A stretch of 64,000 nucleotides of DNA from Georgenia satyanarayanai (GTDB taxonomy: Bacteria; Actinomycetota; Actinomycetes; Actinomycetales; Actinomycetaceae). Both the position numbers and the translations under genes were made by a program. The stretch covers positions 1-64,000 of the forward strand of contig NZ_VUKC01000001.1 in assembly GCF_009193135.1 (NCBI RefSeq). Reading direction: 5' to 3'. Within the stretch, counting starts at the first letter, position 1. Each line of letters starts with the position of its first letter. Positions 2,597 to 54,554 of this stretch are shown here, piece after piece. The notes beneath the pieces are model-generated. The model ran no database searches, was not told the origin of the DNA, and worked only from the letters and a program-made list of their open reading frames with translations.

Positions 2597-2668
2597 AACG
2601 TCGCAATTGGTGGCTCCGCTGACGCTTCAGCGTCTCGGAGCGTCGCTCAACCCACCAATTGCGACGTT
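2597..2668. repeat. Palindromic intergenic element (complete copy)
   Basis: A perfect 17-base inverted repeat, AACGTCGCAATTGGTGG at 2597-2613 and its complement at 2652-2668, encloses a second nested hairpin (CTCCG..GACGCT / AGCGTC..CGGAG). The AATT core is striking in DNA this GC-rich. A further partial copy of the 3' arm (TGCGACGTTC plus GGG) follows at about 2678-2690. The same arm occurs at both sides of the DUF559 gene (10575-10641 and 11723-11789). It may also act as a transcription terminator for dacB, though there is no T-run. Confidence 0.85.
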
Positions 2669-2734: not shown

Positions 2735-3796
2735 ATGAGCTCTCCCATCGACTGGCGGGTGGCCCGCCACCGCGCCGCCGTGCTGTCCCGGCCCGGGCCC
2801 CGTGCCGGCCGCGCGGAGGCCCGCGGCCTCGTCACCGTGCTCCACACCTCCGCGAAGGAGGCACCTGGCCACGTCGCCGACATCACCGGCCTGGACGACG
2901 CCGCCGCGCGGGCCGCCCGGCGCCCCGTCTACGTCGTGGACCGGGCCCGCTGGGCCGAGGCCAACGTCGGGATGTTCCGCCACCTCGTCGGGGACCTGCT
3001 CCCGCCCACCACGCTGCCCGGAGCCGCGCGGCTCGGCGGCGAGGAGCTCGGCGTCATGCTCTCCTACCTGTCGACGAAGGTGCTCGGCCAGTTCGACCCC
3101 TTCACCAGCGTCGACGGCCGCGGGGAGCCCGGCTACCTCCTCCTCGTCGCGCCGAACATCCTCCACGTCGAGCGCGAGCTCGACCTCGACGCCCTCGACT
3201 TCCGCCGCTGGGTCTGCCTCCACGAGCAGACGCACGCCGTCCAGTTCTCCGCCGCGCCCTGGCTCGCCGGCCACCTCGCCGAGCGGATGACCGCGACCGT
3301 CTCGTCGATCGCCTCCCCCGAGGGCGGGGCGCAGCGACTCGCGCGCACCGTGCGCGCCGTCGTCGAGGCCGTCACCACGCCGCGCGGGGAGACCCCGGCG
3401 GCGCAGGCCCTCGCCGGCCCGCTCGTCGACGCCGTGCTCACCGAGGAGGAGCGCGAGCGCCTCGCCGAGGTCGTCGCCGTCATGTCGCTGCTCGAGGGGC
3501 ACGCCGACGTCGTCATGGACGCCGTGGGTCCGCGCGTGCTGCCCTCGGTCGCCCGCATCCGCACCCAGTTCGACCGCCGCCGTGAGGGAACCGGGACACT
3601 GGACGTCGTCGTGCGCCGGCTCATGGGAGTGGACGCGAAGATCGCGCAGTACCGCAACGGCGCCGACTTCGTCCGTGGGGTCGTCCACCGGGTGGGTCAC
3701 AACGGGCTCAACGCCGTGTGGGCCGCCGCGGAGAACCTCCCGACCCCCGCCGAGATCGCCGACCCGACCGCCTGGGTGCGCCGGGTCCACGGCTGA
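2735..3796 (+). CDS. Zinc-dependent metalloprotease-like protein (DUF2342, 'coenzyme F420 biosynthesis associated')
   Basis: A 353-residue member of the zincin-like DUF2342 family, widespread in actinobacteria and usually found just upstream of tilS, as here. The zinc motif HExxH is seen as HEQTH at residues 163-167, inside an otherwise helical, soluble protein with no signal peptide. The family has been labelled F420-associated from phylogenetic co-occurrence; no substrate is established to my knowledge, and nothing else here makes F420. It ends four bases before the tilS start, so the two are probably co-transcribed. Confidence 0.85.
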   Translation: MSSPIDWRVARHRAAVLSRPGPRAGRAEARGLVTVLHTSAKEAPGHVADITGLDDAAARAARRPVYVVDRARWAEANVGMFRHLVGDLLPPTTLPGAARLGGEELGVMLSYLSTKVLGQFDPFTSVDGRGEPGYLLLVAPNILHVERELDLDALDFRRWVCLHEQTHAVQFSAAPWLAGHLAERMTATVSSIASPEGGAQRLARTVRAVVEAVTTPRGETPAAQALAGPLVDAVLTEEERERLAEVVAVMSLLEGHADVVMDAVGPRVLPSVARIRTQFDRRREGTGTLDVVVRRLMGVDAKIAQYRNGADFVRGVVHRVGHNGLNAVWAAAENLPTPAEIADPTAWVRRVHG

Positions 3797-3799
3797 GCC

Positions 3800-5005
3800 G
3801 TGGCCGGTCCCGCCCCGGCGGTGGCCGCCGCCCGCACCGCCGTCCGCGCGGTGCTGGCGGACCTGCCCGCGGGGTCCCTCGTGCTCGTCGCCTGCTCGGG
3901 CGGCGCAGACTCCCTCGCCCTGGCCGCCGCGACCGCCTTCGTCGCCCCGCGGGCGGGCCTGCGGGCGGGGGCCGTCGTCGTGGACCACCGGCTCCAGGTG
4001 GGCAGCGGCGACGCCGCCCGCGCGGCCGCGGAGGCGTGCCGCGGGCTCGGGCTCGACCCGGTCCAGGTGCGCGGCGTCGACGTCGGGGGAGCAGGCGGCC
4101 CCGAGGCCGCCGCCCGGTCGGCTCGCTACGCCGCGCTCGAGGACGCCGCGGCGACCTCCGGGGCGGCCGCGGTGCTGCTCGGGCACACCCTCGACGACCA
4201 GGCCGAGACGGTGCTCCTCGGACTCGGCCGCGGGTCCGGTGGACGCTCGCTGGCGGGCATGGCCCCCGCCGCCGGGCTGTGGCGCCGTCCCCTCCTCGGC
4301 CTGCGACGCCGTGACACCGAGGCGGTGTGCACCGCCCACGGGCTGCGCTGGGCCGACGACCCGACGAACACGCCCGACGGCCCGTGGCGCCGCGCCGACG
4401 GCGGGCCGCTGCGCCGCTCGGCCGTGCGCCACCACGTGCTGCCCGCCCTGGAGGACGCTCTCGGCCCGGGGGTGCCCGAGGCGCTGGCCCGCACCGCCCG
4501 GCGGCTGCGCGAGGACGAGGACTATCTCGCGGCGGCCGCCGCCGAGCTCGCGGCGCGTGCGGGACTGCCGGAGGGGCCGTCGACAAGTCGGCTGTCGGCG
4601 ACAAGTCGGCTGTCGGCGGCAAGTCGGCTGTCGGCGGCAAGTCGGCTGTCGGCGACAGGTCGGCTGTCGGGGGCAAGTCGGCTGTCGGGGGCAAGTCGGC
4701 TGTCGGCGGCAAGTCGGCTGTCGGCGGGCGAGGACGGGGTGAGCCGGGCCGGCGAGGTGAGCCTCGACGTCGTCGTGCTCGCGGGGGCGCACCCCGCGCT
4801 GCTCGGGCGGGTGCTCCACCGGGCCGCCACGGCGGCCGGCTGCCCGCCCGGGTCGCTCACGGCCGCGCACGTCGCGGCGCTCGAGACACTCGTCACGGGG
4901 TACCGGGGACAGGGCCCGGTGTCGCTGCCCGGCGCTGTCACCGCCGGGCGTCGGTGTGGGAGGCTGACCTTCGGTCGCCGCGGCCCGCGCGGCGCAGGTG
5001 AGTGA
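3800..5005 (+). CDS. tilS: tRNA(Ile)-lysidine synthetase
   Basis: Modifies C34 of the CAU-anticodon isoleucine tRNA to lysidine so that it reads AUA; essential in most bacteria. The N-terminal PP-loop ATPase carries S33-GGAD-S38 and later VDHRLQ and the [11 protein letters not shown] helix. It starts with GTG four bases after the DUF2342 stop. The notable oddity is an in-frame array of eight 18-base repeats (4581-4724) that adds about 48 residues of the unit TSRLSA between the ATPase domain and the short C-terminal domain. The frame is intact on both sides, so the protein is probably functional with a flexible insert. Its end overlaps the region of the hpt start. Confidence 0.92.
4581..4724 (+). 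repeat. 18-base tandem repeat array (8 units) inside tilS
   Basis: Eight consecutive copies of CGACAAGTCGGCTGTCGG or close variants (CGGC, GGGC or CGACAGG at the unit start). Each unit can form a small stem CGACA/TGTCG around AGTCGGC. Being 18 bases long, the units keep the tilS frame and encode the six-residue repeat TSRLSA / ASRLSA / ASRLSG. The same unit occurs at 17469-17504 and, on the other strand and diverged, at 54429-54554. Confidence 0.95.
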
Positions 5006-10574: not shown

Positions 10575-10641
10575 AACTTCCCAATTGGTGAGTTGACTGA
10601 CGGTTATGGGCGGCAAGGCGTCGCTCGACGTCGCACGTGGT
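10575..10641 (+). repeat. Left flanking repeat of the DUF559 gene
   Basis: A 67-base sequence that aligns without gaps, in inverted orientation, to 11723-11789; I count 52 of 67 identical positions by hand. Shared blocks include AATTGG, GTTGACTGACGG, GGCGTCG and CACGTGGT. Its outer arm is a degenerate form of the 17-base arm of the palindrome at 2597-2668. It lies between the DUF3180 stop and the end of the DUF559 gene. Confidence 0.75.
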
Positions 10642-10664
10642 GGGTTGTGGGGGCCTCGGGTCCG

Positions 10665-11612
10665 TCAGCTCGTCCGACCCTGGAAGTGGCGCTGCCACCG
10701 GGGGTCGAGGCGCCTGACCCGCACACCCCGGGACTCGAGGGCCTCGACGACGCGCCGCAGGGTCTGGGCCGGGTGGGTGTAGACGTCGGCGGCGCGGATG
10801 ACGATGAGGCGCCAGCCGTGCCTGTCGAGGAACTCGCGCCGGACGACGTCGTGACTCCACTGCGCGTCGTCCTCCGCGTGCTGGCGACCGTCGTACTCCA
10901 GCGCCAGGAGGAGCCCGGGGTAGGCGAGGTCGAGGCGGTAGGTGGTCACGCCGTCGTCGTCGCGCAGCTCGACCTGGAGCAGCGGCTCGGGCAGGCCGGC
11001 GAGGACGAGCAGCATCCGGACGCGGGTCTCCATCGGGGACTCCGCGCCCGCACGGACGTACTCGGCGGCACGGCGGGCAGCGGTCGCGCCCTTGAGCCGC
11101 GTCCGCCGGCACGCCTCGCGCAGTCCCTCAACTGTGACGTGCCCGAGGCGCACGAGGCAGTCGCCGACGACGACGGCGTCGACCAGTGGCAGCACGCGAG
11201 CCAGGTCGATGAAGGTCTGCTCGGGTGAGGTGACCGCGACGCCGCGGACGTGGTGACCGCGCTCCAGGGTGGTGCACACGTGGAAGGTCGTGCCCTCGAG
11301 ACGGTGCCTCTCGTTCGCCGTCGCGACCATGACGTGCGTCGTCGGCGTGTCGGGGACGACGGCGCCCCACAGGCGGGCGGCGGTGTGGTGGCTGACGACG
11401 GCGAGCGGGCCGGCGACGAGGAGCGCGGCCCGGGCTCGCAGCCACGTGTCGACCTCAGCGCCCTCCGGGACGCGGACGCCGCGGAGGACGGCGGTGTAGC
11501 GGTGGTGGCGCAGGTCCCGCTCCGTCACGCCGACGGCGTCGGCGTCCCGGGAGCGGAAGAGGTGATGATCGGGTGCGGGCCGGCGGAACGCGGCCCCAGG
11601 TTCGGCTGACAT
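10665..11612 (-). CDS. DUF559 / Vsr-like nuclease-fold protein with AbiEi-type N-terminus
   Basis: A 315-residue protein. The C-terminal about 115 residues match the DUF559 group of PD-(D/E)xK-like folds related to the Vsr mismatch endonuclease: an acidic helix (ESPMETRVRMLL), YRLDLAYPGLLLALEYDGRQH, with the paired Asp and Glu expected of a metal site, and GWRLIVIRAADV. The N-terminal part (winged-helix-like region, then SHHTAARLWG and a two-domain AbiEi-like layout) resembles type IV antitoxin-like proteins often fused to DUF559. The target is unknown. It runs opposite to its neighbours and interrupts a block (DUF3180 to PH-domain genes) that is otherwise tightly packed. Inverted repeats lie on both sides, which suggests a transposable or homing cassette (inference). 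Confidence 0.8.
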   Translation of the reverse strand: MSAEPGAAFRRPAPDHHLFRSRDADAVGVTERDLRHHRYTAVLRGVRVPEGAEVDTWLRARAALLVAGPLAVVSHHTAARLWGAVVPDTPTTHVMVATANERHRLEGTTFHVCTTLERGHHVRGVAVTSPEQTFIDLARVLPLVDAVVVGDCLVRLGHVTVEGLREACRRTRLKGATAARRAAEYVRAGAESPMETRVRMLLVLAGLPEPLLQVELRDDDGVTTYRLDLAYPGLLLALEYDGRQHAEDDAQWSHDVVRREFLDRHGWRLIVIRAADVYTHPAQTLRRVVEALESRGVRVRRLDPRWQRHFQGRTS

Positions 11613-11654
11613 GGACCGATGGTGGGGACGCAGGCGGGAGACGGGGAGCCGTCA

Positions 11655-11697
11655 TCCACAGCCGCGGCGAGAGCGGTGGCCGAAGGGCGCCTGTGGA
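11655..11697. repeat. Short inverted repeat upstream of the DUF559 gene
   Basis: TCCACAG at 11655-11661 and CTGTGGA at 11691-11697 form a 7-base inverted repeat within the 243-base spacer upstream of the DUF559 start. It could be a regulator site or a leader hairpin for that gene. The rest of this spacer holds the right flanking repeat and the next gene's ribosome binding site. Confidence 0.4.
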
Positions 11698-11722
11698 GCA
11701 CCGATGGACGGCCGAACATCTG

Positions 11723-11789
11723 ACCACGTGGTCGGTTGACCGACGCCGTCGCGCGCATAGCCGTCAGTCAACCCGCCAATTGCGACGTT
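11723..11789 (-). repeat. Right flanking repeat of the DUF559 gene
   Basis: Inverted partner of 10575-10641. Its outer end reads AACGTCGCAATTGG on the minus strand, identical over 14 bases to the arm of the palindrome at 2597. Internally GGTTGACCGACG and CGTCAGTCAACC (11733-11773) can form a long hairpin with one mismatch, and ACCACGTGGT at the inner end is a perfect palindrome. Confidence 0.8.
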
Positions 11790-17434: not shown

Positions 17435-17468
17435 CGCGTCCCATCCCCGAGAGCTGGGCTGTTCCTGT

Positions 17469-17504
17469 CGACAAGTCGGCTGTCGGCGACAGGTCGGCTG
17501 TCGG
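17469..17504 (+). repeat. 18-base repeat, two units, in a convergent spacer
   Basis: Two tandem copies (CGACAAGTCGGCTGTCGG, then CGACAGGTCGGCTGTCGG) matching the unit found eight times in tilS. They lie between the 3' ends of the AEC transporter and the oppositely oriented P-loop kinase, and are followed by a run of G-rich sequence. Confidence 0.9.
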
Positions 17505-17534
17505 CGGTGGGGGTGGGGGCGGGGGCGGGTCTCC

Positions 17535-18230
17535 TCAGGCGGGGCGGGTGACGAGGCCGCGGATGTACTGCTCGGCCTCGGTCACCCGCATCGTGCGCGC
17601 GCCGCGGCGCTCGAGCTCGGCGATCATCCCCGGCTCGATGCGCGCGAGGTTGAGGCCGCGGCGCAGGAGTGTGAGCGGGGGCTTGCGGGCCTCACCGAGG
17701 TCGCGCAGGAGCCGGAACCAGAAGGTCTGCAGGCGCGGGCGCCACAGGCACAGGGCGTCGGCGAGGATGTCCTCGTCGCGGCACTCCGCGATGAGCTCGG
17801 CGGCGAAGATTCCCTCGGCGAGCACGATGGGGCTGCCGCCGGCGTCGAACTGGGTGGTCGTCGTGCGCCGGTTGGTCGGGATGTCGTACAGCGGCACCTC
17901 GGCGCGGCCGGTGCGGGCGATCTCGAGGAGCGCGGCGAGCGCGCCCTCACGGTCCCAGCTGCGCGGGTCGTCCCAGTCGACGATGCCGTACCGGCGGGGC
18001 AGCTCGGGGTGGTCACCGTCGCGGTAGAAGTCGTCCAGCGAGACCACCGGGAGGCCGAGTCGGCCCGTGAGCGAGGTCTTTCCCGACCCGGAGGGCCCGG
18101 TGAGAAGCACCACGCGAACGGGCGTGCGCCGCGCACCCGGCGGGATGTCGAACAGCCCGGGCTGGCTGACCTCGTCGGCGGCGGGACCGGCCTCGGCGTC
18201 GCCCGTGGCGCCGGTGCTCGTCGCGCTCAT
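17535..18230 (-). CDS. Uridine kinase-like P-loop ATPase
   Basis: A 231-residue soluble kinase with Walker A GPSGSGKTSL, then VVSLDDFYRDGD (the Asp-containing lid of uridine/pantothenate-type kinases), an IVDWDDPRSWD segment and LAEGIFAAEL. These are family features of uridine kinase-like proteins in actinobacteria; the real substrate is untested. The ATG at 18230 is chosen because the longer frame upstream is Arg-rich and unlike the family. Divergent from lysS. Confidence 0.8.
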   Translation of the reverse strand: MSATSTGATGDAEAGPAADEVSQPGLFDIPPGARRTPVRVVLLTGPSGSGKTSLTGRLGLPVVSLDDFYRDGDHPELPRRYGIVDWDDPRSWDREGALAALLEIARTGRAEVPLYDIPTNRRTTTTQFDAGGSPIVLAEGIFAAELIAECRDEDILADALCLWRPRLQTFWFRLLRDLGEARKPPLTLLRRGLNLARIEPGMIAELERRGARTMRVTEAEQYIRGLVTRPA

Positions 18231-54417: not shown

Positions 54418-54428
54418 CCCACCCCCCG

Positions 54429-54554
54429 CCGACAGCCGACTTACCGCCGACAGCCGACTTACCGCCGACAGCCGAGTTGTCGTCGACAGCCGAGTTGTCG
54501 TCGACAGCCGAGTTGTCGTCGACAGCCGAGCTGTCGTCGACAGCCGAGCTGTCG
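54429..54554 (-). repeat. 18-base tandem repeat array (7 units) in a convergent spacer
   Basis: Seven units spaced exactly 18 bases. Two units match the complement of the tilS-type unit (CCGACAGCCGACTT core); five are a diverged subtype (TCGACAGCCGAGTTGTCG, the last two with AGCTG in place of AGTTG) in which the CGACA/TGTCG hairpin is exact. The array fills the spacer between ccsB and the convergent PLDc_N gene and may double as a terminator. Confidence 0.95.

Follow-up and report, generated by a model that had tools for sequence, protein, structure and literature searches.

A Vsr-like nuclease gene bracketed by dispersed, genome-specific palindromes in Georgenia: a possible analogue of the REP/RAYT arrangement

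Dispersed palindromes are long-standing puzzles, and the locus considered here poses the puzzle in a particular form: why is a nuclease gene enclosed between two inverted copies of a palindrome that recurs elsewhere in the genome, in the middle of a block of closely coupled genes? The window, that is, the entire stretch of 64,000 nucleotides from Georgenia satyanarayanai that was analysed (its 3.44-Mb genome is denoted G000), had been read in a preliminary description as containing a minus-strand DUF559/Vsr-like gene between a DUF3180 gene and two PH-domain genes (the names of these neighbours are those of that description), flanked by 67-base inverted copies of a repeat akin to a palindrome at 2597-2668. 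It was suggested that the gene could be a mobile or homing cassette, or that nuclease and palindromes could form a system analogous to REP/RAYT. The relevant features are the following:

10665-11612, minus strand: nuclease gene; 315-residue product with an AbiEi-like N-terminal region and a Vsr/MTES_1575-type PD-(D/E)xK nuclease
11193-11558, minus strand: AbiEi-like region, the presumed DNA-binding part (residues 19-140; PADLOC AbiEi E 7.5e-9)
10737-10961, minus strand: nuclease domain (residues 218-292; Pfam match and conserved residues)
10575-10646, plus strand: left element, 72 nt (cores CAATTG at 10582-10587 and CACGTG at 10634-10639, 52 bp apart)
11718-11789, minus strand: right element, 72 nt (cores CAATTG at 11777-11782 and CACGTG at 11725-11730, 52 bp apart)
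2597-2668, plus strand: third copy of the CAATTG family (cores at 2604-2609 and 2656-2661)

The assignment of the gene is borne out by Pfam: residues 218-292 match MTES_1575 (E 2.5e-11; 43.9 bits, above the cut-off of 38.2), and the protein also exceeds the cut-off for DUF559 (E 3.4e-5); its score against Pfam AbiEi_1 is below the cut-off. Among the 27 homologs described below, E239, D241, H245 and D255 are conserved in all 27 and D228 in 26; we take these five residues to be the catalytic set, which fits the Vsr-type PD-(D/E)xK motif. As judged by domain score and by these conserved putative catalytic residues, the window protein is an MTES_1575/DUF559 (Vsr-like) nuclease. Searches with the same protein returned only weak matches, far below the cut-off, from NCBIfam and, as the best match in the PDB, a glutamate mutase (E 0.058); an AlphaFold2 model from single-sequence input had a pLDDT of 42 and was unusable.

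The flanking copies, too, are as had been described. Positions 10575-10641 and 11723-11789 are identical, in inverted orientation, at 52 of 67 positions, whereas the best of 200,000 pairs drawn at random within the window reached 42, and each copy makes up the larger part of one 72-nt element. The cores of both elements have the form CANNTG, with CAATTG on the outer and CACGTG on the inner, gene-facing side. The left element separates the 3' end of the DUF3180 gene from that of the nuclease gene, and the right one occupies the divergent gap upstream of both the nuclease gene and PH1. The palindrome at 2597-2668, which follows the stop codon of gene 1101-2591 by 5 nt, indeed belongs to the same family.

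How widespread is this family? In the whole-genome search that the preliminary description had proposed, the arm AACGTCGCAATTGG proved to be dispersed, with 77 matches in G000 at no more than 2 mismatches versus 1 for the reversed control. The notion that the arm beside the gene also occurs elsewhere is thereby upheld, with the correction that the unit is not just a gene-side arm: the matches pair up as self-palindromic elements of 72 or 73 nt at about 52 places, this figure being half of the 104 both-strand hits of a sequence model, R1, that was built from 45 of these same elements. The model finds 62 such hits in the closest relative, G001, and 0-7 in other genomes; as 28 of 39 genomes contain a match at E<=0.05, mostly 1-5 (7 in G002, 5 in G004), the latter numbers represent background or remote similarity. 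Fifty places in G000 were listed, four single-arm ones (C1:13118, C16:213734, C16:373743, C17:102110) were dropped, and 45 elements entered alignment A1, which excludes a half element in L068; at least four further elements found by the model (C7:48417, C7:13398, C18:219098, C16:362258) lie outside this set. A scan of a contig collection for the strict CAATTG pair, in which records of the genome itself had possibly been left out, returned only two betaproteobacterial MAG contigs.

The centres of the G000 elements fall into subfamilies, with 22 similar pairs against a mean of 0.4 and a maximum of 5 after a letter shuffle that ignores the palindromic make-up of the centres. By sequence, this structure suggests copying rather than independent origin. 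In locus L067, two elements with identical centres (2964-3035 and 3701-3772) lie 0.7 kb apart in direct orientation, with a gene that is presumably GNAT-like between them; this pair is likely to be a recent duplication.

The genome harbors a second family, GTCGGCTGTCGGCG, with an 18-nt tandem unit that is found in the window at 4587-4726, 17475-17506 and 54427-54458; it runs within a coding sequence read as tilS, sits elsewhere behind genes, and is present in 149 exact copies in G000, 15 in G003 and 0-5 in six other genomes. It also occurs just behind a DUF559-like paralog at C12:413745. Two weaker DUF559-like paralogs, L084 (gene at C1:79844) and L085 (gene at C21:71238), each have, by eye, an inverted repeat of their own on both sides; their guessed reading frames gave no Pfam match.

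Is the gene itself mobile? Comparison of the DUF3180-PH junction in relatives speaks against this part of the earlier suggestion. G002 and G004, of the same genus, carry the same gene at the same junction, 58-59% identical to the G000 copy. In G001, the junction retains the left element, 56 nt matching the 3' part of the gene and the right element, most of the gene being gone, and the rest of that genome contains no match to it at E 1e-40. At the junctions of G003, G007, G026, G012 and G017, tblastn (E<=1e-5) found no homolog, and these junctions are, by eye, short and free of elements, so that the gene does interrupt a conserved block, as had been claimed; the G005 contig stops before the junction. 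The presence of the gene or its remnant at one junction in G000, G001, G002 and G004 implies that it predates their split and speaks against a mobile or homing cassette as far as the gene itself is concerned. No target duplication was seen and no clean pair of insertion and empty site was found, so that gene and repeats do not present themselves as a composite mobile element or IS moving jointly.

At this fixed place, the repeat has switched together with the gene. In G002 and G004 the gene is bracketed by another palindrome, GCATATG...CATATGC, and CATATG pairs are dispersed in these genomes (23 in G002, 29-30 in G004); none were found in G000, G001, G003, G005, G007 and G026, and none with the reversed pattern. 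Among twelve other genes compared between G000 and G002/G004, ten are 83-99% identical, PH1 79-80% and TilS 73-74%. Within the nuclease protein, identity between G000 and G002/G004 is 20-26% in residues 1-35, 43% in residues 36-70 and 49-77% in the remainder; in the G000-G002 comparison the first two segments are the lowest of nine (26% and 43%). Thus, on alignment, the part expected to read DNA is the most changed part of the protein, a divergence that need not imply a changed specificity because the first 15 residues are variable across all homologs (mean 0.28).

The element populations themselves were then compared. Of the 33 G004 elements, 29 were considered (two flank the gene and two were not fetched): 13 share an intergenic gap with a G000 element, 2 more adjoin one with a single alignable flank, and the other 14 comprise 2 in a gap that is element-free in G000, 2 with a weak partial match and 10 without a counterpart among the fetched loci. 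The flanks of shared-gap elements are about 88-96% identical, and the chance expectation for shared gaps is 0.5-3, depending on the number of eligible gaps (p 2e-6 with only 500 gaps). Same-gap elements are no more similar than random pairs (15 pairs; p 0.43 for the whole element, 0.66 for the inner part); on this ground, descent in place of the G004 elements from G000-type ones was rejected. Hotspots, or hairpins selected by the host, would account for the sharing of gaps as well as replacement would; the data are compatible both with the replacement of elements in old gaps and with new insertions at tolerated hotspots, whose number is estimated from the overlap at about a hundred. One gap in the window is occupied by different families in the two genomes:

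17435-17541, no strand: gap holding a CATATG element in G004 and a member of the second family (GTCGGCTGTCGGCG) in G000

For G000 versus G001, both flanks could be aligned at 21 loci; inspection by eye showed an element in both genomes at 17, in G001 only at 1 and no clear counterpart at 3, the shared fraction being biased upwards because elements of G001 had guided the choice of its stretches. In an orthologous gap (L042 in G000, L242 in G001), an unrelated long hairpin takes the place of the element in G001. In G000, CAATTG forms the core hexamer of 53 among 90 arms (entropy 2.07 bits; still 53 of 98 if all eight arms of the four unadded elements differed), and in G001, which has lost the gene, the commonest hexamer, CAGCTG, accounts for 13 of 54 (3.80 bits), a comparison that is biased because the G000 set was picked by the CAATTG pattern and the G001 set by a model trained on G000, and in which some G001 cores are poorly placed. 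The looser core in a genome without an intact gene is, on these sequences, suggestive only; the G001 copies look degenerate, and we infer that loss of the gene caused this decay.

Does the association extend beyond the genus? When 396 genomes belonging to the order were searched, with only the five best candidates per genome scored, 27 homolog loci reached E 1e-40 or better; they are spread over 23 genomes. Repeated 12-mers in the 54 flanks of these homologs lie at a distance of 51 in 18 and of 52 in 9 (about 0 after shuffling). At least ten 12-mers are common to both flanks in 15 of the 27 homologs, as opposed to 10 of 591 control genes (p 1e-16), with the proviso that the homologs are drawn from related genera and that the flank statistics ignore kinship. 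The controls came from 0.8 Mb of G240 and G331 with 595 genes; 14 of these pass, including 4 DUF559 genes; the control counts of 10/591 and 7/591 exclude recognised DUF559 genes, a fifth of which was recognised later, so that 590 is the closer denominator. At a looser threshold for flank sharing the contrast is weaker (19/27 versus 103/595). The sharing threshold is missed by 12 of the 27 homologs and both stricter thresholds by 10 (L168, L169, L172, L180, L184-L189); yet L168 and L169 are bracketed by CATATG elements, L186-L188 have downstream arrays at 65-67 bp, and L180 has an upstream pair at 54.

Motifs taken from the gene flanks allowed a prediction of dispersal that was made beforehand and was borne out in both whole-genome tests, G016 and G398, which represent two other genera. 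The motif CACTCACGTGAGTG has 81 sites in G016, many of them in arrays at 52 bp, and 0 in seven other genomes; TCGCGYCWGRCGCGA has 23 sites in G398, with several pairs at 51 bp, and 0-1 in seven others. Each brackets the nuclease gene of its own genome, and the sites themselves are palindromic. Arrays in G016 (e.g. L328) comprise as many as five palindromic sites with a 52-bp spacing, and the three-site array in L328 has identical spacers. About 10% of each of G240 (some 380 kb) and G331 (some 370 kb) was surveyed for the repeats of six homologs: two gave a clear array elsewhere (L191 and L171, one each), one a weak hit (L192) and three none, and the stretches with the dispersed arrays of L191 and L171 revealed no DUF559 gene. 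Enrichment of 11-mers in G240 and G331 was uninformative, being swamped by coding bias. An 11-mer of TCAGCGGCATACGG, found in G240, e.g. in the downstream flanks of L170 and L191, has 93 near matches in 383 kb versus 3 for the reversed one.

Dispersal combined with genome specificity is thus seen in five genomes (G000, G002, G004, G016 and G398), each family bracketing the DUF559 gene of its own genome; these amount to four lineages because the proteins of G002 and G004 share 96% identity. So far, the gene-repeat arrangement is known from at least two families within a single bacterial order. A RAYT as the mobiliser of these repeats was considered and rejected: a search for the Y1 transposase domain (PF01797, E<=0.001), which gave matches in 5 of 14 control genomes, gave none in 8 of 8 genomes.

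Taken together, the observations to be explained are the bracketing, the dispersal, the spacing, the genome specificity, the switch of the repeat with the gene, the subfamilies and the conserved putative catalytic residues, and it appears very probable that the nuclease gene and the palindromes form a matched pair. Our preferred reading goes further: with a probability of roughly 0.55, this is a REP/RAYT-like pair of gene and repeat built on an unrelated nuclease, which spreads the repeat in a RAYT-like manner, binding, cleavage and spread being what we infer. The analogy proposed in the preliminary description is partly supported, by the dispersal, the cognate repeat in G002/G004, the G001 remnant with both elements and the motifs of G016 and G398; the enzyme is not of the Y1 kind. 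Under this scenario, the AbiEi-like N-terminal part would read a short palindromic site that is paired or arrayed at 51-52 bp, i.e. about five helical turns, so that the sites face the same side of DNA, a phasing suggestive of a complex that would hold two sites at once. The Vsr-type nuclease part would nick or cut at the recognised site, and repair or copying would multiply the element into tolerated gaps just behind genes, as is thought for RAYTs and REPs. The gene would stay at one locus between its own sites and be vertically inherited; upon a change in N-terminal specificity, the element population of the genome would turn over to the new sequence, in many cases within the gaps already in use, and once the gene is absent they would decay.

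The most serious competitor, unlikely as it is, portrays the protein as an AbiEi-like autoregulator, with the flanking arrays as its operators, the dispersed copies as regulon or bystander sites, and a nuclease that acts elsewhere, e.g. in defence or repair. AbiEi proteins bind inverted repeats and autoregulate, according to the available portion of PMC7319586. The N-terminal part of the window protein is AbiEi-like, the right element lies in the gene's own upstream gap, and the G016 sites, which are not clearly behind genes, include several that a rough ORF caller places in divergent gaps. This is difficult to reconcile with the position of the dispersed copies behind genes: a rough caller found 19 convergent, 24 codirectional, 2 divergent and 1 unclear context among 46 G000 elements (it misassigned the right window element, which is really in a divergent gap); for 29 elements of G004 the corresponding counts are 15, 9, 0 and 5, and the G000 elements frequently lie 5-40 nt past a stop codon. 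Moreover, arrays at the 27 homologs are at least as frequent downstream of the gene as upstream, and the subfamilies point to copying.

Still less likely is the possibility that the elements are terminators or other 3'-end hairpins of the host, homogenised by drift or conversion, and that the gene is bracketed for insulation. The hairpins are strong, with a median z of -6.1 in G000 (40 of 45 below -2) and -7.2 in G004 (29 of 29); G004 elements often have, by eye, an A-tract/stem/T-tract appearance; of 39 distances measured to 3' ends, 35 do not exceed 40 nt; and different families use the same gaps. In G004 the pairing covaries (391 pairs versus 313 expected). In G000, both arms fit one consensus and most dyad positions show no pairing covariation; only positions 10 and 16 and, more weakly, 34 and 36 in the centre covary beyond independence, and a plain RNA hairpin as the only constraint was rejected. 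The CATATG and CAATTG families thus differ, covariation being broad in the former and limited to a few dyad positions in the latter. Terminators would have no need for an arm that is specific to its genome, recurs at a fixed 51-52 bp and has its match in the flanks of a single nuclease gene, and the right window element lies in a divergent gap. That the sites are species marks, used for selective exchange of DNA or for self-recognition by the nuclease in the manner of DUS for ComP, is improbable: the joint change of gene and repeat sequence resembles a switch of dialect, for which the DUS dialects are a precedent (PMC3630211), but thousands of DUS (same source) compare with about 23-81 sites per genome here, no methylase or uptake gene is apparent beside the nuclease gene in the ORF list of the window, and the bracketing array at the gene is left unexplained.

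If the REP/RAYT-like reading is correct, the pairing of gene and repeat suggests what DUF559/MTES_1575 proteins that carry an AbiEi-like part may do. The flanks of the nuclease gene, having predicted the repeat of their own genome in both whole-genome tests, provide a direct handle on dispersed palindromes, and G000 and G002/G004 would represent a natural specificity switch between close species with most neighbour genes 83-99% identical.

How does this arrangement relate to known systems? In the excerpts available of PMC2817692, RAYT genes are always flanked by two inverted REPs, which are abundant and dispersed, and REPs lie mainly in convergent and codirectional gaps near 3' ends, some families being species-specific (also PMC3733652, likewise in part). 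Similarly, the gene is here placed between two inverted palindrome copies (G000, G002, G004, G016, G398), and the repeats are dispersed and sit behind genes in convergent or codirectional gaps in G000 and G004, which is not clear in G016. The differences are that the roughly 23-81 sites per genome are fewer than the REPs, whose copy number is quoted as >100, that the sites are phased at 51-52 bp, and that the protein combines a Vsr-type PD-(D/E)xK nuclease with an AbiEi-like part, RAYT being an IS200/IS605-type Y1 (HUH) enzyme; the G000 consensus shows no evident GTAG. Because the enzyme class differs, the present system is not a member of the REP/RAYT group. CGTC-tagged REPs resemble the elements described here in being dispersed palindromes at 3' ends, and the G000 half-element has GACG/CGTC inner blocks, whereas the CATATG, CACGTG and TCGCG families lack, by eye, the CGTC block, and those REPs are reported without a dedicated enzyme (PMC3733652, in the part available), unlike the repeats paired here with a nuclease gene.

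The protein has relatives in other settings. AbiEi antitoxins share the N-terminal similarity noted above, and binding to inverted repeats is described for AbiEi and for the related Rv2827c (PMC7319586); unlike them, the present system has a C-terminal nuclease, DUF3180/PH neighbours and dispersed sites. In PMC3710099 the MTES_1575 nuclease appears as a domain of the Vsr type that occurs in fusion with HEPN and other domains, and VsrA of Caulobacter, a DUF559 Vsr-like protein and similar in that respect, is tied to a cytosine methylase (PMC12907096), which is a difference; the available portions of these two papers contain no mention of a repeat association, and titles and abstract openings in the open-access literature none of a link between DUF559/MTES_1575 and dispersed palindromes. 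Set against these systems, the arrangement may tentatively be regarded, at somewhat less than even odds, as a REP/RAYT-type design that was invented a second time and non-homologously, in which a Vsr-type nuclease with an AbiEi-like reader would maintain and renew the phased palindromes across the genome and a change of specificity would rewrite the whole population in place.
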